From the NCBI GenBank assembly GCA_009782405.1, contig WRJC01000008.1:30239-94238 (forward strand): 64,000 bases of DNA, given 5' to 3'. Under the pieces are notes generated by a model. That model saw nothing but the letters and a program-made list of their open reading frames with translations. It did no database searches and was not told the origin of the DNA. The position numbers and the translations under genes were made by a program. Below, piece after piece: positions 3,920-53,462 of this stretch (positions are counted from its first letter, which is position 1; each line of letters begins with the position of its first letter). This DNA is from Oscillospiraceae bacterium (GTDB lineage: Bacteria; Bacillota_A; Clostridia; Oscillospirales; WRJC01).

Positions 3920-4822
3920 ATGGAAAAGACAAGAAGATTCGCAAAATATTTTGTCGCTTTTGTTTTGGCGGCCATTTTGGCTGTGGGCGCTTTTCCCGTC
4001 CCGGTCAGGGCAGAAACCGGGGTTGTCTCGAACGACAAAGCCAAAATGGATTTCACCGATTCGAACGCCACCGGCACGGTCAAGATCAACGTGGTGGCGA
4101 AAGTGGACAAAAAGGTCAAGGTTTCGATAGAAAAAGGCGACAGGAAATACAGCTACGATCTAAACGGCGGCGGAAAAGTTGAATCCTACCCGCTCCAGTG
4201 GGAAAACGGGGAATACACCGTGAAAGTCCTGATACAGGCGAGCGACCCCACGAAGTATTCGGTCGCGCTCACCAACACATTCAAACTCGAGCTGAAAGAC
4301 AACAAAGCCCCCTACATGAACCCAAACCAGTTCGTGAACTACACCAAAGAAACCGCCATCGTGAAAAAAGCCGCCGAGCTCGCGAAAACCGGAGCGACGC
4401 AGCTCGACAAAGTCGAGGCGATATACAAATTCGTGATAGAGAGCCTGTCATACGACACGAACAAGGCGACCACCGTCCAGAGCGGCTATGTGCCCGATGT
4501 GGACAAGATAGTGAGTTCCGGGAAAGGAATATGCTTCGACTACGCCGCGGTGTTCGCAGTGATGCTGCGCTCGCAGGGCATACCCGCCAAGCTTGTGATG
4601 GGGTATGTGAAAGACCCGAATTCGAAGGATTCCGTCTACCACGCCTGGAACGAGTTCTATCTGTCGGACAAGGGCGGCTGGTTCAAGATAAACGAAATGA
4701 AATTCGACGGCCAGAAATTCGAGAGGATCGACCCGACATTCGATTCGTCTTCCAAATCAAGCAAGGCCGTGATAAAATTCATCGGCGACGGCTCGAATTA
4801 CTCAAAAAGCTGGGATTTCTGA
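3920..4822 (+). CDS. Secreted transglutaminase-like (cysteine protease-fold) protein
   Basis: A 300-residue exported protein. The signal peptide (ARF... to VPVRA) has a signal-peptidase I site near residue 34. Residues about 35-125 form a beta-type domain of unknown family. The C-terminal half is a transglutaminase-like core: the catalytic Cys lies in GKGICFDYAAVF, the His in HAWNEFYL and the Asp in the following RIDPTFD. The triad is therefore complete. Such bacterial proteins usually act as surface proteases or peptide-modifying enzymes, and the true substrate is unknown. Start is ATG 3920 with GGGAGGGG at about 3900-3908. It has its own promoter and is followed by rpmE 48 bp downstream. 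Confidence 0.85.
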   Translation: MEKTRRFAKYFVAFVLAAILAVGAFPVPVRAETGVVSNDKAKMDFTDSNATGTVKINVVAKVDKKVKVSIEKGDRKYSYDLNGGGKVESYPLQWENGEYTVKVLIQASDPTKYSVALTNTFKLELKDNKAPYMNPNQFVNYTKETAIVKKAAELAKTGATQLDKVEAIYKFVIESLSYDTNKATTVQSGYVPDVDKIVSSGKGICFDYAAVFAVMLRSQGIPAKLVMGYVKDPNSKDSVYHAWNEFYLSDKGGWFKINEMKFDGQKFERIDPTFDSSSKSSKAVIKFIGDGSNYSKSWDF

Positions 4823-4870
4823 GCCATTGACATACAAAAAATCAATCAAAACATGACGAGGTATACAAAA

Positions 4871-5074
4871 ATGAAGGAAAAAATCCATCCCAACTACTAC
4901 GACGTGACAGTGAAATGCGCGTGCGGCGAACAGATAACCACGCGCTCTACGAAAAAAGACATAAAAGTCGATATCTGCTCCAAATGCCATCCCTTTTTCA
5001 CGGGCAAGCAAAAGTTCGTGGATGTAGGCGGAAGAGTGGACAAATTCAAGAAACGCTACAACGCGAACGTGTAA
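4871..5074 (+). CDS. rpmE: Ribosomal protein bL31
   Basis: A 67-residue 50S subunit protein beginning [10 protein letters not shown], the usual bL31 start. Zinc ligands are visible as CACG near residue 16 and CSKC near residue 37, so this is the zinc-binding (C+) form rather than the zinc-free paralogue induced in zinc starvation. The motif [12 protein letters not shown] is characteristic. ATG 4871 is preferred over an in-frame upstream codon near 4853 because GAGG at 4858-4861 sits nine bases before it and the family begins here. It stands between the transglutaminase-like gene and hflX. Confidence 0.96.
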
Positions 5075-5226
5075 CGCGGTTTGCTCCGGCTTGGGCGCGC
5101 AATGTCGATTTTTTTGCGGTTTTATACTGTCACAAATTGACGGATTCGGGAAAAACGCCGAGTCTGCTCTGTTTGGGCGGTATTTTTTTATTTTGCGCTT
5201 AATTTGAGAAAGGGCCAAAAATACAT

Positions 5227-6534
5227 ATGACGGAAAAAAACAAAACGATAGAGACAACGGCGGAAACAAAAGCCAAGGCGCTTTTGGTGGGATTGGTCAC
5301 GCCGGATATTTCGGAGGGCGAATGCGAACTTTCCCTCGACGAACTCGAAAGACTGGCCGAAACGGCCGAAATATCTTCCATGGGCCGGCTTTGCCAGAAC
5401 AGGGCGGCCCCCGACCCCGCCAGCTATATCGGAAAAGGCAAGCTGGAAGAGGCGAAGGCCATAATGGAATCGAACGAAATAAACGTCGCGATAATCGACG
5501 GCGAGCTTTCGCCTTCGCAGATAAAGAACATCGGGGACTTTTTGGGCGGCATAGAGGTGATCGACAGGACAATGCTTATCCTGGAGATTTTCGAAAAGCA
5601 CGCGCACACAAGCGAAGGGAAGCTGCAAGTGGAAATCGCGAAGCTCAGGTACACATTGCCCCGCCTTGTCGGAAAAGGCAAGGATATGTCGAGGATCGGC
5701 GGGGGCGGCGGAGGGACGGCCGGGGCGCGCAGGGGCTCCGGCGAAACGAAGCTGGAAGTCGAGCGCAGGAACGCAAAGGCGCGAATCTCCGCGCTCGAGC
5801 AGGAAATAGAGAAACTCGGGACATCCCGGAACTTGACGCGATCCCGCAGGCAAAAAGCGGGAATACCGAACATAGCAATCGCGGGCTACACGAATTCCGG
5901 AAAATCCACGCTGCTCAATTACCTCACGGATGCGGGCGTGCTGGCCGAAAACAAACTGTTTGCCACCCTCGACCCCACCACGCGGAAACTGCGGCTGCCA
6001 AACGGCTCCGAAGTGCTTTTGACCGACACCGTGGGGCTCATAAGAAAATTGCCGCACCATTTGGTGCAAGCCTTCAAATCCACCCTCGACGAAATAAATT
6101 ACGCCGACATAATCCTGCTCGTCTCGGACATATCGGATCCGGAGCACCAAAGCCAGCTGGAAGTGGCGGCGGAGCTTCTGTCCGAAATGGGCATAACGCA
6201 AAAACCCATCGTCACAATCTACAACAAGATCGACATGCGGGAAAGCCCGCCCGCCCCGGATGGCGTCCGCTTTCCCGAAGCATACATATCGGCCAAAACC
6301 GGAGAGGGCATAGAGGACCTTTTGGCCCAAATACAGCAAACTTTGGAAACCTTGAGAAAGTCCGTGGTTTTCGCGTTTCCGGCGGATGGCAGCCAACAGG
6401 GGCATATAAACTACCTCTACAGGAACGCCGCCGTTTCAGAAGTGGAATACGGCCCGGATTTCGCGACTGTGCGGGCCTCAGCCGACGAAAAGACGAGGAA
6501 CATGTACGCGAAGTATTTGGCCGTTGGCGATTAA
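5227..6534 (+). CDS. hflX: GTPase HflX, ribosome-splitting factor
   Basis: A 435-residue HflX. The N-terminal HflX domain (residues about 10-150) is followed by the glycine-rich stretch GGGGGGTAGAR near residue 160, a basic coiled-coil helix, and the G domain. The P-loop GYTNSGKST is near residue 220, the switch/G3 motif is DTVGLI, and the G4 motif NKID is near residue 335. HflX proteins bind 50S or 70S ribosomes and rescue stalled ribosomes during stress. Start is ATG 5227 with a weak AAAGG upstream. Its stop overlaps the stop of the convergent acyl carrier protein gene by four bases. Confidence 0.96.
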   Translation: MTEKNKTIETTAETKAKALLVGLVTPDISEGECELSLDELERLAETAEISSMGRLCQNRAAPDPASYIGKGKLEEAKAIMESNEINVAIIDGELSPSQIKNIGDFLGGIEVIDRTMLILEIFEKHAHTSEGKLQVEIAKLRYTLPRLVGKGKDMSRIGGGGGGTAGARRGSGETKLEVERRNAKARISALEQEIEKLGTSRNLTRSRRQKAGIPNIAIAGYTNSGKSTLLNYLTDAGVLAENKLFATLDPTTRKLRLPNGSEVLLTDTVGLIRKLPHHLVQAFKSTLDEINYADIILLVSDISDPEHQSQLEVAAELLSEMGITQKPIVTIYNKIDMRESPPAPDGVRFPEAYISAKTGEGIEDLLAQIQQTLETLRKSVVFAFPADGSQQGHINYLYRNAAVSEVEYGPDFATVRASADEKTRNMYAKYLAVGD

Positions 6535-6758
6535 TTGCCGTTGGCCGTTATATATTCCGCTATGTCGCCTACGCATACGAGTTTTTTCAGTTCCTCGTCT
6601 TTTATCGAGATTTTGAACTCTTCCTCGCAAGTCAAAATGAATTCGGCGAGTTCAAGCGAATTGAGCTCGAGGTCCGCTATGAGTTTGGCTTCCGGGGTTA
6701 TGAGTTTTTCGTCGATTCCCATGTTTTCGACAAGAAGGTTTTTCACTTTTTCAAACAT
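6531..6758 (-). CDS. Acyl carrier protein
   Basis: A 75-residue acidic helical protein with the phosphopantetheine-attachment Ser in ELNSLELAE (residue about 34). The usual DSL triplet is NSL here, which still keeps the modified serine. It lies 13 bp downstream of an acyl-AMP ligase gene on the same strand and is clearly its partner: the ligase probably loads free fatty acids onto CoA or onto this carrier. The main fab cluster at 25.6-34.8 kb has no acyl carrier gene, so this could also be the general carrier, but the linkage to the ligase favours a dedicated one. The 3' end overlaps the hflX stop on the other strand. Confidence 0.9.
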   Translation of the reverse strand: MFEKVKNLLVENMGIDEKLITPEAKLIADLELNSLELAEFILTCEEEFKISIKDEELKKLVCVGDIAEYITANGN

Positions 6759-6771
6759 GATTTTGGCTCCT

Positions 6772-8520
6772 TTATTTTAACTTATATCTCAGGATTTTTT
6801 TGGTAGTGGTTTTTTCGAATTCCTCGCTGCGGATCTCCACTTCGTTTATCTGCTTGAATACCGGCAGCCGCTTGTTCGTCTCTATCACCTTGTCTTTTAT
6901 CGCGGCCTCGATTTCGCCGGAATCCTTGCCCGCGAAAATTTCAAGTTCCAAATCGGGGAACACCAAAGCGGTCAAAACATCGTCCCCATTCTCTTTTTTG
7001 CGGCCGATCACCGCGCATTCCTTTATTTCTTCGATCTTTTCCAAATATTCCTCGATTTCCTCGGGGTAGATGTTTTTACCGTTGCTCAGTATTATTATGT
7101 TTTTCCTGCGGCCCGTAATATACAAAAACCCGTCCTTGTCCAAATAGCCTATGTCCCCCGTTTTGAAAAACCCATCTTCGGTGAAGACTTCTTTCGTGGC
7201 TTCTTCGTTGTCCAAATAGCCGATCATGACATTGTCGCCCTTGACGAGTATTTCCCCGTTTCCGTCTTCGTCTTTTTCGCCTATTTTTATCTCGTCCTGG
7301 AACACGGGATAGCCCACCGAGCCCGCTTTTTTCATATGGAAGCCTTTGGGTATGACCGCGACCAAAGGCGAACATTCGGTTATCCCGTAACCCTGCCAGA
7401 CCGCTATCCCGAAAGCGTCCATCGTCTTCACGTGCTCGGGCTTCAGCGGGGCTCCCCCGCATATGATGGCATTCACGTTTCCGCCGAGTTCCGCCAAAAT
7501 ATCCTTGAAGAGCGTCCTTCTGAGGTCGATTCCGGCTTTTCGGAGCGAATTGCTCAGCTTGATCGCGGTTTTGACGGTTTTTGTCTTGCCTTTCTTTTCT
7601 ATCCCGTCCCAGATTTTTTTCACCAAAGTGTCCACGAACAGCGGCACGAGCACCATTTTGTCGGGTTTGTACGTTTTGAAATCGCGCAGCACGGTTTTCA
7701 GCGATTCGTTTTGGCACAGTTGGGTGCCCAGCATCGCGGCGGCAAACATCGTGCAGGTCGTCTCGTAGGTGTGGTGGATGGGCAGCACGGGGACCATGAC
7801 GTCGAGGCGTTCGAGCATGACGCAGCAAGCCGCGTTATAGGCGTTCGAGGCGATGTTTTTTTGCGAAAGCATGACGGCTTTGCTCGTCCCGGTGGTGCCC
7901 GAGGTGAACAAATACGCGCAGGGCTTTTGGGCGTCTATTTCGACGTCGGCAAATTCGGCGAAGTTTTCGCTTTGCGCCTCTTCGCCCATTTCCAGAACCC
8001 GCCCAAAGGAATATATCCCGAAGTCTTTGTATTCGGGAAGTTCCCCATCTTCCGGATCCAAGTCGAAATTTATAAACTTGTTTGCGGTTTTTTGCGGCCT
8101 GTCCGAAGTTTTGGCGTAATTTTCGATCAAGGGCGCGAACTGGCCGGAATAGACAACGCATTTTACCCTCGCCCTCTCCAAAAAATTCATTATCTGTTCC
8201 GCCATGAGTTCCTTGTCAAGCGGAACTATTATGCCGTTTCCGTTGACGACCGCCATATAGCAGGCCAGCCATTCGTATCTGGTTTCCGTGATGATCGCCA
8301 CAGTTTCCCCCATGAGCCCCATTTTGCAAAATGCCGCTCCCGTTATTTGCATTATGTCGTACATGCCGTCGTATGTGAGGGTGGTCGCCTCCCCCTTTTT
8401 TTTGAATGTGAAATAGGGCTGCGGGCCGTACTGCCTTTTGGCGTATTCCCAAAGCTGTCTCAAATTTTCGACTTTTTCGACTTTGTCCGGATAAAAAGTT
8501 TTCGGCATTTTTCCGCTCAT
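6772..8520 (-). CDS. Long-chain acyl-CoA/acyl-ACP synthetase (AMP-forming)
   Basis: A 582-residue ANL-superfamily adenylating enzyme. The P-loop-like A3 motif is YLFTSGTTGTSKAVM (about residue 205), the A5 motif is GYGITECSPLVA (about residue 380), and the GDIGYLDKDGF and GRRKNIIILSNGKN motifs mark the hinge to the C-terminal lid, whose catalytic Lys (TTKKILR) is near the end. It activates fatty acids with ATP. No signal or membrane helix is evident. Start at 8520 has AGGAGG nine bases upstream (8530-8535). The acyl carrier protein gene follows directly, suggesting a scavenging pair that feeds exogenous fatty acids into phospholipid or surface-lipid synthesis. Confidence 0.92.
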   Translation of the reverse strand: MSGKMPKTFYPDKVEKVENLRQLWEYAKRQYGPQPYFTFKKKGEATTLTYDGMYDIMQITGAAFCKMGLMGETVAIITETRYEWLACYMAVVNGNGIIVPLDKELMAEQIMNFLERARVKCVVYSGQFAPLIENYAKTSDRPQKTANKFINFDLDPEDGELPEYKDFGIYSFGRVLEMGEEAQSENFAEFADVEIDAQKPCAYLFTSGTTGTSKAVMLSQKNIASNAYNAACCVMLERLDVMVPVLPIHHTYETTCTMFAAAMLGTQLCQNESLKTVLRDFKTYKPDKMVLVPLFVDTLVKKIWDGIEKKGKTKTVKTAIKLSNSLRKAGIDLRRTLFKDILAELGGNVNAIICGGAPLKPEHVKTMDAFGIAVWQGYGITECSPLVAVIPKGFHMKKAGSVGYPVFQDEIKIGEKDEDGNGEILVKGDNVMIGYLDNEEATKEVFTEDGFFKTGDIGYLDKDGFLYITGRRKNIIILSNGKNIYPEEIEEYLEKIEEIKECAVIGRKKENGDDVLTALVFPDLELEIFAGKDSGEIEAAIKDKVIETNKRLPVFKQINEVEIRSEEFEKTTTKKILRYKLK

Positions 8521-45619: not shown

Positions 45620-45648
45620 TTGAAATAACCGTAAATATATGATAAAAT
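45620..45648 (+). promoter_or_regulatory. Sigma-A promoter for binding-protein paralogue 5
   Basis: TTGAAA at 45620-45625, 17-bp spacer, TAAAAT at 45643-45648 with TG before it. Confidence 0.72.
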
Positions 45649-45698
45649 TTGTGTATAATGTTTTCATGTCCAACTTTATCAGGGAAGTGTGTTTTTTT

Positions 45699-47225
45699 AT
45701 GAAAAGGATTTTATCGATCGCTTTGCTTGTTTCGCTTATGGGGTCTTTGGTTTTGCTTGCTGCCTCGTGCGGGGGCGAAACGGTCTCAACCCAAGAAAAA
45801 AATGACGCGAACGAAGGCCCGACGGCGGAAAATGGCGGCGAAGCCGCAGAAACCCCGACAGAGGAATCGTTTGACCCGGGATTGCCGGACATGGATTTCG
45901 GCGGGGCGGAATTTCGGATATTGAACTTGGACCAAGAATCGATGTGGTGGGCGATATCCGATTTGGACATGGACATCGACTCCATCGACAAAGTGGGCAC
46001 GGCGCTGAGCGACCCTGTGGTCAACGACGCAATCTACAAAAGAAACAGGACTTTGGAGGAAAAGTACAATTTCGTCGTCAAGGAGACGAGGACTTCGTCG
46101 GCGCAGGTCGCCTCCATACTCAAAAACAGCGTGAACGCGGGCGGGGACGATTACGACTTGGTTTCGCCGCATACGCAGACCGCGCCTTCGATGGCCACTT
46201 CGAACCAGCTCGTCGATTTGAACAAAGTCCCGTACCTGAACTTCGACAAGCCGTGGTGGAACAACTCCGTGAGCCATTATTTCGCGATGGGAAACAGGCT
46301 GTTTTTCACTTGCTCGGATTTTACGATCTCTGACAAAGACAATGTGGCCGTATTCATGTACAACAAAAAGCTCGCGGAGATTTTGGGAATAGACGGCGCG
46401 GAATCGCTGTACGGCCTTGTCGAGGAAGGCAAGTGGACTTATGGCAAATTTATCGAACTTTGCAAGGCCGCCCCGGCCGATTTAAACGGCGACGGCGTGA
46501 TAAAAGGCCCGGACGACAGGTACGGCCTGTCGTGCTGCGGCTGGCTCTACACATACCTGCTCGCCGGATTCGACGAGACCGTCATAAAAAAAGACGCCGA
46601 CGACTTGCCCTATATAGCGGCGAAATCCGAACGCTTCGCCGAAGCATATGCCGCCATGGTCGATTTTCTGTTTTTGCGCGAGGTGGTCGTGAGGGAATAC
46701 ACCGATACACCAAACCTCAGGACGGAAGAAATGTTCGTAAATGACAAAGCGCTGTTTTGCGCGCAGGTGCTGGCCTGCGTGAGGCTGTATAAAAACATGG
46801 GAAGCGATTTCGCGCTGCTCCCATTCCCCAAATACGACGAAGCGCAGCCCACATACTGCACGCCCGCCTTGGGTTCGCAGTGCCTCGTAATCCCCACCAC
46901 AAACCCGAACTTGGAACAAACCGGGTTCATCCTCGAAGCGATGAGCGCGGAGAGCAGAAAAGTTGTAATCCCCGCCTATTACGAAATATCGATTGGAACG
47001 AAATACCTGCGCGACGACATCTCGGTTAAAATGCTCGACATAATACTCCAAAACAGGATATATGACATCAACGACTCGATGTACAACTGGGGCAATTTCC
47101 CGGGCGCCTTTTCGGCGGCGGCCTCGAAAGGCGACAAGAATTTCGCTTCCCTGCTGGAAAAAAACGAAACGAAACTCGAGGCGGCGATGCAAAAAACCAT
47201 AGACGCATTCAACGATATCGATTAA
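45699..47225 (+). CDS. Extracellular solute-binding lipoprotein (orphan, paralogue 5)
   Basis: A 508-residue binding protein with lipobox LAASC near residue 24 and a Glu/Thr/Asn-rich linker. Shared family motifs are DPVVNDAIYKRNRTLEEKYN, the LNFDKPWWN segment and LLPFPKYDEAQPTY (Phe in place of the usual Leu in LPLPK). It is the most divergent of the five. ATG 45699 is chosen because the earlier in-frame ATGs lack ribosome sites and the sequence between is not secretory. It is followed by a discoidin-domain surface protein after 36 bp. Confidence 0.87.
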   Translation: MKRILSIALLVSLMGSLVLLAASCGGETVSTQEKNDANEGPTAENGGEAAETPTEESFDPGLPDMDFGGAEFRILNLDQESMWWAISDLDMDIDSIDKVGTALSDPVVNDAIYKRNRTLEEKYNFVVKETRTSSAQVASILKNSVNAGGDDYDLVSPHTQTAPSMATSNQLVDLNKVPYLNFDKPWWNNSVSHYFAMGNRLFFTCSDFTISDKDNVAVFMYNKKLAEILGIDGAESLYGLVEEGKWTYGKFIELCKAAPADLNGDGVIKGPDDRYGLSCCGWLYTYLLAGFDETVIKKDADDLPYIAAKSERFAEAYAAMVDFLFLREVVVREYTDTPNLRTEEMFVNDKALFCAQVLACVRLYKNMGSDFALLPFPKYDEAQPTYCTPALGSQCLVIPTTNPNLEQTGFILEAMSAESRKVVIPAYYEISIGTKYLRDDISVKMLDIILQNRIYDINDSMYNWGNFPGAFSAAASKGDKNFASLLEKNETKLEAAMQKTIDAFNDID

Positions 47226-47261: not shown

Positions 47262-48113
47262 ATGAAAAAGCGCATTTGTTTGTTTCTGGCATTTTGCATA
47301 GTCATTTCCTTGGCAAGCGCAATAACCGCATCGGCATGGACTGGCGGCCCCGCAATTGCAAGCGTCGGGGCGACTACGGACGACTATGACTACGAGGGCG
47401 AATTGGCATTTGACAACGACCCCGAACAGTTCTGGCACAGCCAATGGCGCGCCGACCCCGACGACGAGGACGAATATGTCGCCTTGGATGATTTCCCGCA
47501 GACATTGATAGTCGAACTCGACAACACTTACTGGATCGACTGCGTGGGCTATCTCCCCAGGCCGGACGCTTCCCGCAACGGATCGGCTCTCGAGGCGGAA
47601 ATCTGGGTTTCGACCACAGGGACTGTAACCGATTTCGACAATGACTCGGGTTGGACCAAAGTCGCCTCCGCCACATGGGACGAAGACCACTGGCTCGATT
47701 TTAAGGAAGCTTGGGACGATACCGAAGCAGTCGTTTTTTCCAATGTGGAATTTGATCCCGTGGAAGCCAAGCTCGTAAAATTTAAAATTGTCGACGGCAT
47801 GGGCGGCTGGGCCTGCTGCGCCGCGCTCGAACTCGGGTTTTTGGGCGTCGGCTACACGCCAATGGAAGGTTTCGTGCCAAAGAGCGCGCCCGGGACTCCG
47901 GCCCCTGCAGTCGAAGAACCCGAACCCGCCCAAGAAGAACCCGCAGCCGCAGCCGCCCCGGAGGCCGCCCCTGAACCGGCCGCCCCGGTGCCCGAACCCG
48001 CGCCGACCGCCCCGCAAACGGGCGACGGAGCGGACATCGTGATATTTTCCATCATGCTGCTCGCGGCGCTGTGCCTTGTTTCATACAAAACGATAATAGT
48101 AAAAATCAATTAG
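47262..48113 (+). CDS. Discoidin (F5/8 type C) domain surface protein
   Basis: A 283-residue exported protein. Residues 1-26 are a signal peptide (ITASA-WT). Residues 27-190 match the discoidin/CBM32-like fold, with DNDPEQFWHSQW and FPQTLIVELDNTYWIDCVGYLPR, and probably bind fucose- or galactose-type glycans. A Pro/Ala/Glu linker (about 210-250) leads to PQTGD, one membrane helix and a short KIN tail: an LPXTG-like cell-wall sorting signal of the PQTGD type. AAGGAGG precedes ATG 47262. It follows a binding lipoprotein, consistent with glycan capture. Confidence 0.86.
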   Translation: MKKRICLFLAFCIVISLASAITASAWTGGPAIASVGATTDDYDYEGELAFDNDPEQFWHSQWRADPDDEDEYVALDDFPQTLIVELDNTYWIDCVGYLPRPDASRNGSALEAEIWVSTTGTVTDFDNDSGWTKVASATWDEDHWLDFKEAWDDTEAVVFSNVEFDPVEAKLVKFKIVDGMGGWACCAALELGFLGVGYTPMEGFVPKSAPGTPAPAVEEPEPAQEEPAAAAAPEAAPEPAAPVPEPAPTAPQTGDGADIVIFSIMLLAALCLVSYKTIIVKIN

Positions 48114-48152: not shown

Positions 48153-48182
48153 TGGCAAGCAGTTTGGGAGGGGCAAAAAATC

Positions 48183-50258
48183 TTGAAGATACGCGACGCA
48201 AAATTTTATTTTTATATCCCGCTTATTTTGTTTCTGCTGTTTTTGCCGGCTTGCGCGGCAAAACCGTCCGAGCCCGCCGCGCCCCTTGTGAAAATCATGG
48301 TTTCCGTGCCCGATGGGGTGGCGGTCGAAAGCGAAAACCCGGTGTATGTAAGTTCGGGCGGGACGGCGGAGTTCATGCTGAAAATCGACGACGGGTTCAA
48401 GCTCGAAAGCATAGAGACGGTGGATTCGGAACTGAGCGCGCTGTCGGGGGGCGACGGCTTTTGCGGAGCGTTTTACGAAAACGGCCTGTTGCGCTTTGAA
48501 GGCGCGGTTTACCCGTCCACGCTGCGGCTTGACATAAGGCCGATAAAAACATACAGGTGTTTCATCGAAAACAACATAAAAATGGGGATTGCCACATCCA
48601 ACGTGGAGCAGGGCAGGATCCCCGAAGACACTTTTGTTTCAGTTTCTGCCGAAGCTTTGGAAGACTGCATTTTCATAGGCTGGTCAAAGGGCGCGCTGAT
48701 GTCAAAAGGGGGGCAATTTCTTTCGCATTCCCAAAATTACAGCTTCACCCTCGTTTCGGATATGTTCATTTACCCGAACTACCTCTCCAAAAACGGCCAA
48801 TATATAAAATACAGCGCCAACGGCGGCGTTTTGGCGGGGGCGGGCCCGGAACAGGATGAAGCCGACATATTGTACTACGAAGTGAACACGAAGCATTACC
48901 CGTGCCCCAACGCATTTGGCGATACCGGGATATTTTCCCGCGAAGGCTATGCGCTGATCGGATACAATACTGAGCCCGACGGCGGCGGCGTTTCCATCGG
49001 GCTTGGGTGCAATGTGGCAGTGATGCCCCAGGGCGAAAATGTGCTCGAACTATATGCCCAATGGGTGAAATACAGCGACGCGGATTTGTTTTCCTATACC
49101 GAATCAAACGAGAAAATAACGATAACCGGTTATGAAGGAAACGAGGAAATGCTTGTGATACCCGAAGAAATCGACGGCCTGCCCGTGGCCGCGGTTTCAA
49201 ACGGGGCGATAAAAAGCAATGAACTCAAAACATTGTTTTTGACCAGAAACATCACTTCGCTTTCAGTGCGGGCCATATCGAACTGCCCGAACTTGGAAAC
49301 TCTGTACATTTCGGACAGCATCACGAAAATGCCGAACGAAAGCATATCGAACTGCCCCAACTTATCGAATTTTTATGTGAGCGCGGTTATTGCGCCCCGC
49401 TATTCCGATGCCCTCGGATGGGGGAGTTCGATAAAATACAAACGGCTGATTACCGCGCCGGGCAAGCGGCTGACGGTCATATCGGGGTCAAGTTCCGCTT
49501 TCGGCCTCAATTCCCCGCTGCTCTCCGAACTTTTGGACGGCGAATACTCGATAGTCAACTACGGCACCCATGCGGGCGTCTGCGCGCTGTTTTTCCTCGA
49601 GTTCACCGCAAACCAGACAAGGGAAGGCGACATCGTGGTCATGGCGCCCGAACCGGTATGGGAAAGCCAGCAGGGGGCAAATTGGCTCGATGCGCTGACA
49701 TTCCAGATTGTGGAAGGGGCATATGACGCATTCCGCCATGTGGACATAAGAAATTATGCGAATGTGTTCGCCGCTTTCGCCGATTTCAATTCGACCAGGA
49801 AAAACATGGGCGCGGGCAGCTACGATGAATATATCGACGATGTGAACATATACGGAGACATACTCACAAACCAGGCCGACCACCCGGTGGACTATGTAGC
49901 CGGAGGCCAGTGGATCTCCTTTGGCAACATCATGAACCGGGACGGCGCCGCGAGGATAAACCGCGTAAACGATATAATAAAATCGAAAAACGGGCGTTTT
50001 TACTTGGCCTGTTCCCCGGTGAACCGCAACGCGCTGGTCGATAAGGGCGACACGGAAAAAAGGCAGTTGGCTTACAGGGACAATTTGGAGCGTCTGCTCG
50101 AACTTCCCGTCATATCCTTTCCCGGCGACTATGTCTTCCCCGGAAATTTTTTTTCCGACACGGACCACCACTTAAACGACATCCATTCCGCCGACCGCAC
50201 CATACAGCTCGCCAAAGATTTGAAGGCGCAATTTGAAAAGGAGGAGCTTAGTGATTAG
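48183..50258 (+). CDS. Surface lipoprotein: InlB-type repeat, LRR, C-terminal SGNH domain
   Basis: A 691-residue secreted lipoprotein. Residues 1-20 are a signal ending in lipobox FLPAC. An N-terminal beta region is followed by an InlB-like repeat (EPDGGGVSIG...LYAQW), then BspA-type leucine-rich repeats (NLETLYISDSITKMPNES). The C-terminal 250 residues are SGNH-hydrolase-like, with GSSSAFGLNS and a terminal DTDHHLND Asp/His motif. TTG 48183 with GGGAGGGG is the likely start. It opens the gene set with the MBOAT protein at 50555. The last codons overlap a dispersed repeat. Probable role: cell-surface O-acylation partner (inference). Confidence 0.78.
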   Translation: MKIRDAKFYFYIPLILFLLFLPACAAKPSEPAAPLVKIMVSVPDGVAVESENPVYVSSGGTAEFMLKIDDGFKLESIETVDSELSALSGGDGFCGAFYENGLLRFEGAVYPSTLRLDIRPIKTYRCFIENNIKMGIATSNVEQGRIPEDTFVSVSAEALEDCIFIGWSKGALMSKGGQFLSHSQNYSFTLVSDMFIYPNYLSKNGQYIKYSANGGVLAGAGPEQDEADILYYEVNTKHYPCPNAFGDTGIFSREGYALIGYNTEPDGGGVSIGLGCNVAVMPQGENVLELYAQWVKYSDADLFSYTESNEKITITGYEGNEEMLVIPEEIDGLPVAAVSNGAIKSNELKTLFLTRNITSLSVRAISNCPNLETLYISDSITKMPNESISNCPNLSNFYVSAVIAPRYSDALGWGSSIKYKRLITAPGKRLTVISGSSSAFGLNSPLLSELLDGEYSIVNYGTHAGVCALFFLEFTANQTREGDIVVMAPEPVWESQQGANWLDALTFQIVEGAYDAFRHVDIRNYANVFAAFADFNSTRKNMGAGSYDEYIDDVNIYGDILTNQADHPVDYVAGGQWISFGNIMNRDGAARINRVNDIIKSKNGRFYLACSPVNRNALVDKGDTEKRQLAYRDNLERLLELPVISFPGDYVFPGNFFSDTDHHLNDIHSADRTIQLAKDLKAQFEKEELSD

Positions 50259-50296
50259 CGATCAATTGGCCGGCGGCAAAAACTAACCACTAACCA
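50246..50296. repeat. Hairpin repeat, TTAGTGATTAG type
   Basis: CTTAGTGATTAG and CTAACCACTAAC can pair imperfectly across about 45 bases. The left arm supplies the last codons and stop of the upstream gene. A similar repeat of different sequence occurs at 30220-30285 and 60017-60088. It may mark an insertion or an mRNA-stabilising element. Confidence 0.5.
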
Positions 50297-50308
50297 ACCT
50301 GAGTAACC

Positions 50309-50539
50309 ATGTTCTACATAACATATCTGGTTCCCGCTTTGGCTCTGCTTGCTTGCGCCGTTTTGTATGTCCTCGAAAACAGGGCGAAACAAAAAAAATG
50401 GATTTACGGAGCGGCGATTTTCGCCCTGCACGTTTTTTCGATTGTGTATTTTTTATTTGCCGAACTTACTATGGACGTACTTCTGGTGTTTTTGCTCGCG
50501 TCGTTTGCTTTGGCGATAAGCGCCAAACCACTTAAATAG
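50309..50539 (+). CDS. Small membrane protein
   Basis: A 76-residue, mostly hydrophobic protein: two or three predicted membrane segments (YLVPALALLACAVLYVLEN, WIYGAAIFALHVFSIVYFLFAEL, VLLVFLLASFALAISA). No known family. No good ribosome site precedes ATG 50309. It lies between the SGNH lipoprotein and the MBOAT gene and may be a subunit of the same complex, as small proteins often accompany MBOAT acyltransferases. Confidence 0.6.
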   Translation: MFYITYLVPALALLACAVLYVLENRAKQKKWIYGAAIFALHVFSIVYFLFAELTMDVLLVFLLASFALAISAKPLK

Positions 50540-50554
50540 GTTGCATAATTTTAT

Positions 50555-52024
50555 ATGATATTTAATTCGTTCGCGTTTTTCGTGTTTTTTCCCATCGTTT
50601 TATTGGGACATTTTTTTCTGCCTCATAAATTTCGGTGGGTCTTTTTGCTTCTTGCCAGCTACTATTTTTACATAAGCTGGAATTTTGACCTATTGTACCT
50701 CATACTCCTGACTACGGCGATTTCGTACGCGAGCGCGCTGATCATCGAGAAGGTTTCGAGCCCCGGAATCAAAAGGCTGGCTCTTGTGGTGACCCTTGTT
50801 TCGTGCCTCGGCATTTTGTTTTTTTTCAAATACTTCAATTTTTTGTCCCTCGCCTTTTTCCAAGCGGCGAACTTCTTTGGCGCGGGGGCGTCCGAATTTA
50901 CGCTGAATGTCGTGCTTCCCGTGGGCATATCTTTTTATACCTTCCAGACGCTTTCATATGTCATCGACGTGTACCGGGGAACCATGAAAGCCGAGCGCCA
51001 TTTCGGGTATTACGCGCTGTTCGTGTCTTTTTTCCCCCAGCTCGTGGCCGGGCCCATCGAAAGGCCCGAAAACCTGCTGCCGCAGTTCAAGGCAAGAAAC
51101 AGACCCGACCCTGCGGATTTTTCCGAAGGGCTGAGGATCGCGCTCAGGGGGTTTATAAAAAAAATAGTGGTGGCGGATCTTTCGGCGCAGTTTGTCAACA
51201 AGGTCTACAACGACCCTGCGGGAGCAAACGGCCCGCTTGTCGTCGTGGCCACGCTTTTGTTCGCTTTTCAGATTTACTGCGATTTTTCCGGTTATACGGA
51301 CATCGCCACGGGCTGCGCGCGCATGATGGGCATAAAGCTGATGAAAAATTTCGACCAGCCGTATTCCTCGAAAACCATAAAGGAATTTTGGGCGCGCTGG
51401 CACATCAGCCTTTCTTCCTGGTTTCGCGACTATTTGTACATACCCCTCGGGGGCAATCGCTGTTCCGCGCCGCGCTACCTGACCAACATATTCATAGTGT
51501 TTTTGGTCAGCGGGCTGTGGCACGGGGCGGACTGGACTTTTGTCATATGGGGAGCCCTCCACGGTTTTTACCAGATAACGGGGCACATGACAAAAAACAT
51601 CCGCGAAAAGGCCTGCACCCGGCTCAAAATCGACCCGAAAAGCAAAATTGCCGCAATTTGGAAAAACGCCTGCACTTTTGTTTTGGTTTGTTTCGCCTGG
51701 ATTTTTTTTCGCGCGAACAACGTGTCTGATCTCGGCGTGCTTTTAAACCGCTTGTTTTTTTCGTGGTCCGGCGGCTTTGGCCGAATTTTCGATTCGTTCG
51801 GCGAAATCGGCTACAAAACGGCGCAAATCGCAATCACGGTATTTTCCGTGTATATAATAAATGTGCTGGACGCCTCCCCGAGGGCGCTTTCGGGCCCGCA
51901 AAGCGGGGAACTTGATTTTTTTTCCGTGAGCAAATATGTCTTGGCCGTATGGGTTATCGCGTTCGCCTGGCTCATACTGCTGACCGGGAACGGGGCCAGC
52001 GCGTTCATATACTTCCAATTCTGA
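50555..52024 (+). CDS. MBOAT O-acyltransferase (AlgI/DltB type)
   Basis: A 489-residue polytopic membrane protein. AlgI-family signatures are VGISFYTFQTLSYVIDVYRG, FVSFFPQLVAGPIERP, DFSGYTDIATGCARMMG, FWARWHISLSSWFRDYLYIPLGGNR, and the catalytic His in SGLWHGADWTFVIWG near residue 320. Such enzymes move acyl groups from a cytoplasmic donor to surface polymers with help from an SGNH partner. Both neighbours, at 48183 and 52041, carry SGNH domains, and the order matches alginate- or teichoic-acid-acylation loci. The polymer here is unknown. Confidence 0.94.
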   Translation: MIFNSFAFFVFFPIVLLGHFFLPHKFRWVFLLLASYYFYISWNFDLLYLILLTTAISYASALIIEKVSSPGIKRLALVVTLVSCLGILFFFKYFNFLSLAFFQAANFFGAGASEFTLNVVLPVGISFYTFQTLSYVIDVYRGTMKAERHFGYYALFVSFFPQLVAGPIERPENLLPQFKARNRPDPADFSEGLRIALRGFIKKIVVADLSAQFVNKVYNDPAGANGPLVVVATLLFAFQIYCDFSGYTDIATGCARMMGIKLMKNFDQPYSSKTIKEFWARWHISLSSWFRDYLYIPLGGNRCSAPRYLTNIFIVFLVSGLWHGADWTFVIWGALHGFYQITGHMTKNIREKACTRLKIDPKSKIAAIWKNACTFVLVCFAWIFFRANNVSDLGVLLNRLFFSWSGGFGRIFDSFGEIGYKTAQIAITVFSVYIINVLDASPRALSGPQSGELDFFSVSKYVLAVWVIAFAWLILLTGNGASAFIYFQF

Positions 52025-52040
52025 AATCGGGGGTTGCTTT

Positions 52041-53462
52041 ATGAAAGGTTTTGCCATAAAATTCATAGCCGGGGTTTTGGCGGTATGCCTGCCCCTTTTC
52101 GTCGTGGCTGTTGCGGGGCTTTCCTTCGAGCCGCAATTCGGCGAAACGTTTTTGGGCGAGCTCGCGGCCAAAAACAACCGCCTTGAAATCATCGGCAAAC
52201 CCAAGATCGCGGTAGTGGGCGGCAGCAGCATCGCCTTCGGGTTAAACAGCGACATGCTTTCGGAAGAGCTCGGGATGCCGGTGGTCAACTTCGGGCTTTA
52301 TGCGACGCTGGGCACAAAACTCATGCTCGATCTCGCGCAGGCGAGCATAAAAAGCGGGGACATAATCGTCGTCGCGCCCGAACTCGACGGCCAGACGCTG
52401 TCGCTCTATTTCAACGCGGAGAGCGCCTGGCAAGCGTTTGACAGCGATATGTCTATGCTCAAAAACGCAAAATTTGAAAATTACGGCGCGCTCGCCGGAA
52501 ATTTTTGGGGCTATGCGATTTCAAAGCTGAAATACAAACGCTACGGCGGGCTCAAGCCCGAAGGGGTGTACAGCAAATCCTCTTTTAACGTAGACGGGGA
52601 CATCGTATATCCGCGCCCGCACAACATCATGCCGCTCGAATTTGGCCCGAACCACATGATAGACTTGGAACCGGCGATTTTAAGCGGGGATTTCGCAAAG
52701 TATTTGAACAAATTCGTGAAATTCGCGAAAGGCAAGGGAGCGGCGGTGTATTTCGATTTCCCGCCGATGAACCGCTTGGGAGTCTTGCAATACGGAGACG
52801 AAAACGCCATCTACGAATTTTACCGATCTTTGGCAAAAAATCTCGACTGCGAAATAATCGGGAACATAAACAGCTATATCCTCGACGAAAGATATTTTTT
52901 CGACAGCAACTACCATTTAAACGACAGCGGCGTTTTTGTAAGGACCGCGCTTTTGGCGGAGGACATAAAGCGGGCCTTGGGCGTCGCCGTCCCGGTGGCT
53001 ATAGCGCTGCCGCTTCCGCCCGAAAAGCCTCTCGAAGAATATGTTTCCGGCGAGGACGCATATTCGGAGTATTTTTTGTATGAGCCGTACGCCTCGGGGC
53101 TGATAATTGTGGGGGTTTCGGATGCGGGAAAGGGCATGGGAGAACTCACCGTGCCGCGCATGGCAGACGGAAAGCCGGTTCTGGCGGTCGGCGAAAGGGC
53201 GTTTGCGGGTTGCAATATGCTCGCAAAGGTCACAATAGGCGACAACATCGCCCAATTTTACGATTATGCGTTTGAAGGCTGCGAACGCCTGGAAATGATA
53301 ATGCTCAACATGACCGATGCCAGCGCAGTCGCGGTCGGAAACGACTTTTTGGGCGGCGCCAGGGAATCTTGCAGAATATATCTGCCCCGCGAGGCTTTCG
53401 GCAATTTCGCCGTCGATTATTTTTGGAGCAGATATTCAAGCAAAATGGACGTCGCGCCATGA
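52041..53462 (+). CDS. Membrane-anchored SGNH protein with C-terminal leucine-rich repeat
   Basis: A 473-residue protein with one N-terminal membrane helix (AIKFIAGVLAVCLPLFVVAVAG), then an SGNH-like catalytic domain. Its Ser is in VVGGSSIAFGLNSDMLS near residue 55 and its Asp/His in FFDSNYHLNDSG near residue 290. The C-terminal 130 residues hold a leucine-rich repeat (FAGCNMLAKVTIGDNIAQFYDYAFEGC). The domain order (SGNH then LRR) is the reverse of the gene at 48183. GGGGG precedes ATG 52041. It probably acts with the MBOAT protein as an AlgJ/AlgX/DltD-like acyl transfer partner. Confidence 0.8.
   Translation: MKGFAIKFIAGVLAVCLPLFVVAVAGLSFEPQFGETFLGELAAKNNRLEIIGKPKIAVVGGSSIAFGLNSDMLSEELGMPVVNFGLYATLGTKLMLDLAQASIKSGDIIVVAPELDGQTLSLYFNAESAWQAFDSDMSMLKNAKFENYGALAGNFWGYAISKLKYKRYGGLKPEGVYSKSSFNVDGDIVYPRPHNIMPLEFGPNHMIDLEPAILSGDFAKYLNKFVKFAKGKGAAVYFDFPPMNRLGVLQYGDENAIYEFYRSLAKNLDCEIIGNINSYILDERYFFDSNYHLNDSGVFVRTALLAEDIKRALGVAVPVAIALPLPPEKPLEEYVSGEDAYSEYFLYEPYASGLIIVGVSDAGKGMGELTVPRMADGKPVLAVGERAFAGCNMLAKVTIGDNIAQFYDYAFEGCERLEMIMLNMTDASAVAVGNDFLGGARESCRIYLPREAFGNFAVDYFWSRYSSKMDVAP

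Follow-up and report, generated by a model that had tools for sequence, protein, structure and literature searches.

Can a membrane acyltransferase and two repeat-bearing proteins encoded beside it be parts of one system? This question is raised by four neighbouring open reading frames (ORFs), here named genes A, B, C and D, in an Oscillospiraceae bacterium (assembly GCA_009782405.1). The window, that is the whole stretch of DNA that was analysed, comprises 64,000 nucleotides of contig WRJC01000008.1; the four genes lie within its positions 48183-53462, all on the + strand, and the A, C and D types occur in one copy each among its ORFs. Gene C encodes an MBOAT protein, and A and D each combine an SGNH domain with leucine-rich repeats (LRR). 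MBOAT-SGNH systems decorate peptidoglycan, teichoic acids, alginate and cellulose. An original prediction had described four same-strand genes at this place, with the module order swapped between A and D, as a candidate for a new surface-acylation system. The gene positions were confirmed, the swapped order was borne out by fold matches and by the alignment of the SGNH domains, and the distinctness of the system is supported by co-occurrence, by the kept Ser and His residues and by the MBOAT His and Tyr motif. The cassette is real, conserved and coherent, and represents a distinct MBOAT-SGNH variant with paired LRR-bearing SGNH proteins; its parts, their fold families, the conserved catalytic letters, the gene linkage and the co-occurrence were observed directly. 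As for its function, we lean, with slightly more confidence than doubt, towards an envelope O-acyltransferase of the MBOAT-SGNH kind, in which D would be loaded from the MBOAT and A would more likely be the terminal transferase.

Parts of the cassette and their catalytic residues

Gene C matched PF03062 at 6e-28, and its sequence matches among solved structures were DltB chains (about 3e-32). The protein carries the MBOAT His in SGLWHG and ends in FIYFQF, which corresponds to the FxYxxF Tyr acyl-shuttle motif; WHG and FxYxxF were each found in 65 of 65 full-length C relatives. According to the excerpts of the PatA/PatB paper on which we draw, PatA self-acetylates the Tyr of the FxYxxF motif and PatB accepts acetyl from such a Tyr (PMC12148441), a chemistry that would fit C and D. 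Gene B is without this motif. A B-like ORF with at least two hydrophobic segments stands directly before C in 60 of the 63 loci tested (L012 and L079 were excluded as contig ends and three further loci because of a short C), its end lying between 18 bases before and 11 bases after the start of C, with a 4-base overlap in 41 cases. When the same test was applied to control stretches, it returned 0/55 at the end of D, 0/55 after D and 1/45 before A.

Translation of A starts with TTG at 48183, and the signal peptide, in which Cys24 marks an LPAC lipobox, is followed by InlB-like beta repeats (about residues 30-295), BspA-type LRR (296-403) and the SGNH domain (409-688). In D the order is reversed: an N-terminal hydrophobic transmembrane helix precedes the SGNH domain (residues 30-315), and the BspA-type LRR (338-472) come last. 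The SGNH fold and the BspA-type LRR were recovered for both proteins in the fold search, and the homology between the two SGNH domains extends over their full length (hhalign 6e-56). Profile searches, proposed as a check in the original prediction, yielded PF03062 in C and LRR_5 (PF13306) in A, the latter with 29.1 bits against 27.7 and in 22 of 22 A relatives at E up to 0.01; D stayed just under with 27.1 bits, and a convincing Pfam match to SGNH was obtained for neither protein.

Conservation of the active site was assessed on the best 80 of 191 loci from a genome scan with a D profile. The catalytic candidates of D, Ser62, Asp288 and His292, are kept in the D relatives of all 80 loci, a count that is partly built in, as one of the two search patterns held the Asp...His block of D. 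All three are also invariant in alignment A1, whose 34 rows derive from a word search. Residue 63 varies (69 Ser, 10 Asn, 1 Ala), so that Ser62 is the likely nucleophile, and an acid stands at position -4 of the His in 81/81 D sequences. Glu114 (E114), present in 80/80 D relatives, presumably replaces the canonical block III Asn, as read from the alignment. For A the candidates are Ser436, Asp659 and His663. Its relatives keep the His in 78/78 and the Ser in 75/78 sequences (Cys in the other 3), with position -4 to the His taken by Asp in 38/78 and by Asn in 40/78; 66 of the 79 A sequences that include the window's own have an acid at -4 or -2.

The SGNH domains of A and D form a family that present models describe poorly. 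The 26 D-type and 29 A-type domains searched gave no Pfam match to DltD, DHHW (PF14286) or GDSL (E up to 0.1, for DHHW). The solved sequence nearest to the A-type profile was DltD (E 0.0055), which was also among the fold matches, and the search of PDB sequences with the D-type profile found nothing useful. AlgX and AlgJ were absent among the fold-search matches listed, which means nothing alone. A 667-aa protein, P0187, was considered as a sequence bridge to canonical SGNH proteins and rejected: it is a fusion of an A/D-like domain (47-311) with a GDSL domain (465-640) and hence provides no such sequence link.

Conservation, co-occurrence and modularity

Record titles place 79 of the 80 loci in Clostridia-type bins, of which many, though not all, come from animal guts, and one (L040) in Gastranaerophilales. 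An A-type gene was detected in 71 loci, an MBOAT gene in 68 and the order A-C-D on one strand in 60, counts that include genes truncated at contig ends and a few fragmentary A or C. In seven of the nine loci that lack A, the stretch ends within 244 bases of C or D. Ten of the 12 loci without MBOAT have A and D as direct neighbours, and two are at the stretch end; in L029 and L061 A is cut by the stretch boundary, so that coverage begins within it. Three full-length A copies accompany one C and one D in L009, L036, L053 and L062.

The original prediction had made the linkage of the flanking genes with the MBOAT gene a matter to be checked, and in 196 genomes of one family A, C and D occurred together in 30, with a union of 33. 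D was found at E up to 1e-30 in 33 genomes (32 after removal of G352, which has an SGNH-only protein), A at E up to 1e-40 likewise in 33 (32 after removal of G421, a cross-match to D only) and MBOAT at E up to 1e-100 in 40 and up to 1e-139 in 32, the last cut-off having been set after the scores were seen. Each pair of these sets of 32 shares 31 genomes, with 1 and 1 alone and 163 with neither (Fisher 9e-34, relatedness not corrected for). From each of the eight genomes with weaker MBOATs only, one MBOAT was read, and all eight fell outside the clade of the LRR-type systems described below.

The system is patchy in distribution: at class level D was found in 2 of 291 genomes, the centre genome being one of the two. 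The protein database gave 557 D relatives at E up to 1e-3 among 7999 scored, and 35 A relatives by sequence search or 70 by profile, many profile matches spanning little but LRR. One Oscillospiraceae bin contains FWD23_11455 (A) and FWD23_11470 (D, partial), whose tags are 15 apart, which would be equal spacing if the tag step is five. No D relative was found on plasmids, and phages gave one weak partial match (24.8% identity over 64%) in an unannotated 5-kb record; a mobile origin is therefore unsupported.

Loci with A and D alone were followed further in ten genomes by whole-genome search, and nine of them encode a C-type MBOAT elsewhere with 43-60% identity. This MBOAT sits in a complete A-C-D locus in G005, G006 and G007 (L007, L011, L024), beside an A-type gene in G001 (L081), and on the same contig as A-D at a distance of about 9-11 kb in G009 and G010 (L085, L086). 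Within the 10-11 kb read around it, neither A nor D was seen in G002 and G004 (L082, L084), and in G003 it lies immediately before the contig end (L083). In contrast, the best match in the tenth genome, G008, has a DHHW partner (L087), so that this genome combines A-D with an MBOAT-DHHW pair. Of the 83 MBOATs placed in a tree, 74 come from LRR-type systems; these, including the nine found at other places, lie on one side of a single branch with support 99/97. The remaining nine, with SGNH-only, DHHW, other or no recognised partners, fall outside, some on long branches, the MBOAT of G008 among the latter. Gene B was detected by script before the other-place MBOATs of L082-L085 and not in L081, L086 and L087; in L086 it is visible by eye, and in L082 and L084 it precedes MBOATs without neighbouring A or D. 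Since A and D stay adjacent without an MBOAT and a C-type MBOAT of the clade is present elsewhere, B-C and A-D behave as two modules. Judging from the MBOAT-less loci, several transfer heads could be supplied by a single MBOAT.

Several related loci deserve a separate remark. In L085 and L086 the DNA that separates A-D from B-C encodes glycoside-hydrolase-3-like proteins on the same strand. In L088 two adjacent ORFs (4630-5580 and 5635-7080) encode an MBOAT and a 316-aa A/D-type SGNH protein without LRR, possibly an ancestral or stripped form. Loci L092-L095 carry a sister group of MBOATs followed by a protein of 427-466 aa with an N-terminal hydrophobic segment, which gave a very weak A-type SGNH match in two of the four and is perhaps another, unmodelled partner family.

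Known systems, proposed mechanism and alternatives

The comparisons below refer to the excerpts consulted of the four papers cited. PatA/PatB resemble the cassette in an MBOAT with essential His and C-terminal FxYxxF, a separate SGNH partner and a Ser that precedes Asp/His (PMC12148441). Here, however, there are two SGNH partners, each LRR-bearing and unmatched by Pfam SGNH models, and a link to peptidoglycan is not apparent. The D-x-x-x-H spacing of D is unlike both the PatB pair Asp302/His305 (PMC12148441) and the AlgJ pair Asp190/His192, i.e., DxH (PMC4148444). Alginate acetylation by AlgI/AlgJ/AlgF/AlgX likewise involves one MBOAT and two SGNH proteins, one of them polymer-binding (PMC4148444, PMC10641220), but AlgJ and AlgX are circularly permuted, with Asp/His before Ser (PMC4148444), an order not encountered in A and D, in which Ser comes first; LRR and InlB-like repeats are a further difference. 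CcsHI, present in Clostridia, and PatA1/PatB1 also pair an MBOAT with an acetyltransferase partner (PMC7710045), which is, however, a DHHW protein (PF14286) and thus of another family than the SGNH domains of A and D. The Dlt system is linked by DltB, the source of the only solved sequence matches of C, and by DltD as described above; it differs in that the Tyr motif here is on the MBOAT and not on a DltX-like microprotein, that B lacks it and that no DltD Pfam match was obtained. In the part of the window ORFs scanned, neither a DltA ligase nor a DltC carrier (the latter by a simple motif) was seen beside the cassette; some relatives have an adenylating enzyme nearby. As judged from its sequence features tested, the cassette is not of the AlgJ/AlgX, DHHW/CcsI or DltX type.

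New in this layout are SGNH partners that are fused to LRR, doubled and paired even without an adjoining MBOAT; most surprising are two LRR-SGNH proteins of one family that can be separated from the MBOAT. No description of an MBOAT-SGNH-LRR layout was found in the open-licence papers searched, where absence is no proof of novelty. If the proposed function is true, it would constitute an unstudied route of surface change in uncultured Clostridia, many from animal guts, would add an SGNH domain family outside the present Pfam models and would make the acceptor question testable with defined proteins.

For the chemistry we infer the following order of events, in which each step, the acyl group, its donor and acceptor and the role of B are putative. 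C, aided by B, would charge the Tyr of the FIYFQF at its C-terminus with an acyl group drawn from a donor in the cytoplasm (probably acetyl-CoA), and the membrane-anchored D would accept the group from this Tyr on Ser62. D might then acylate the acceptor itself or, more likely, hand the group to A, whose InlB-like and LRR modules would hold the acceptor by docking and whose SGNH domain (Ser436/His663) would complete the transfer. In the alginate work excerpted, AlgJ binds the polymer weakly or undetectably, AlgX binds it and is placed as the terminal transferase (PMC4148444), and AlgF is a mediator (PMC10641220). By this analogy D may be AlgJ-like and A AlgX-like in role, neither belonging to that family, with a presumed relay between them. 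A wider picture is possible, although we place it on the doubtful side: B-C would be a membrane acyl-loading unit serving one or several A-D pairs, also from afar, the new SGNH family would relay from D to A, and the LRR and InlB-like modules would select the acceptor, which might be a protein or glycoprotein of the surface and not a polymer of the cell wall.

Several observations weigh against an O-acyltransferase of this kind. The flanks of the 80 loci show no recurrent glycan-synthesis neighbour. The block III Asn seems, from the aligned letters, to be absent from the SGNH domains of A and D, and their sole Pfam SGNH match was AlgX in one of the 26 D-type domains at E 0.035. In thirteen of the 79 A sequences none of the positions -4 to -1 relative to the His is acidic; together with the Asn at -4 in 40 of 78 this implies that some A may be inactive or use another acid. 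L004 and L005 contain C and D with room for A, yet have none. A repeat-driven change of specificity between tandem A copies was considered and dropped, the repeats diverging no more than the SGNH part: over 15 pairs the median identity was 60% in the N-terminal repeats, 54% in the LRR and 53% in the SGNH domain.

The alternative that we rate highest, though still as rather unlikely, dispenses with the relay: A and D would each be loaded from the MBOAT Tyr and each acylate its own LRR-chosen acceptor. Full-length homology of the SGNH domains, retention of Ser and His in both and the loci with several A copies beside one MBOAT would all accord with such parallel heads, whereas the persistence of A-D pairs where no MBOAT adjoins does not, and a lipoprotein on a long repeat stalk would probably fit the MBOAT exit less well than the transmembrane-anchored D.

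That the donor is an aminoacyl or other special acyl group supplied by an adenylating enzyme, as in Dlt, and not plain acetyl-CoA, appears decidedly unlikely. Adenylate-forming enzymes occur in the flanks of 8 of the 80 loci (Table 1), in six of them (L044, L064, L058, L070, L060, L050) divergently and about 0.2-1.4 kb upstream of A, and B-C of L086 is immediately preceded by an acyl-CoA-ligase-like gene, the single match to PF00501 in that genome. But the eight loci represent three related groups. PF00501 has 81 matches in about 26 Mb from 10 genomes; at this density the 0.64 Mb of flanks read should contain about 2, and the eight loci are no clear excess. The PF00501 enzyme found in the window is about 40 kb off (6772-8517), and a simple motif scan gave no carrier-protein ORF. 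The Tyr motif on the MBOAT itself is moreover linked to acyl-CoA donors in the excerpted PatA paper (PMC12148441).

Very unlikely, in our estimation, is a division in which C and D acylate and A is an esterase that removes the group. Its membership in the family of D, the lack of a match to any known esterase model and an occurrence that tracks C and D almost one to one speak against such a role for A. In its favour, SGNH folds are mostly esterases, and P0187 joins an A/D-type domain to a canonical GDSL domain. A parallel would be the esterase Ape1, which stands in the PatAB cluster according to the same excerpts (PMC12148441). Highly improbable, finally, is a former enzyme that now serves as an adhesin-like scaffold or is itself the acylated acceptor, as the Asn at -4 and the three Cys replacements might hint, given the retention of His and Ser in nearly all A relatives.

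Neighbouring genes

The larger ORF groups that recur near the loci are A/D, C or ORFs mostly inside A, D or C on other frames. The largest free neighbour groups are the adenylate-forming enzymes (8/80), a group with a solute-binding representative (6/80) and one with an ABC transporter representative (6/80). Of the adenylate-forming enzymes, a single-sequence search from that of L058 reached L050, L058, L070 and, weakly, L086; the other members of the group are acyl-CoA-ligase-like.

Table 1. Location of the cassette genes, of a translation signal and of adenylate-forming neighbours (cassette positions refer to the window; adenylation neighbours are given by locus).
Feature	Location	Strand	Description
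Gene A	48183..50258	+	Lipoprotein: InlB-like beta repeats, LRR, SGNH
Gene B	50309..50539	+	76-aa small membrane protein, hydrophobic segments
Gene C	50555..52024	+	AlgI/DltB-like MBOAT, His in SGLWHG, C-terminal FIYFQF
Gene D	52041..53462	+	N-terminal transmembrane helix, SGNH, BspA-type LRR
Ribosome-binding-like GGGAGGGG	48166..48173	+	Just 5' of the TTG start of A; read by eye
Adenylation neighbours	L050 (two ORFs, broken), L058, L070	divergent from A	Amino-acid-adenylation-like
Adenylation neighbours	L044, L060 (cut), L064	divergent from A, about 1.1 kb off	Acyl-CoA-ligase-like
Adenylation neighbours	L068, L075	4-8 kb downstream	Acyl-CoA-ligase-like

Directly upstream of A, on the same strand, the window encodes an F5/8-type C (discoidin) protein with a PQTG-transmembrane-like C-terminal tail (47262-48113) and a solute-binding lipoprotein (45639-47225). 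The SGNH-only MBOAT locus L088 likewise seems, by eye, to have discoidin-like and solute-binding-like proteins on its flanks. Elsewhere in the window a sulfatase-family protein (PF00884, 60933-62801) and a melibiase (PF02065, 36707-38896) are encoded.

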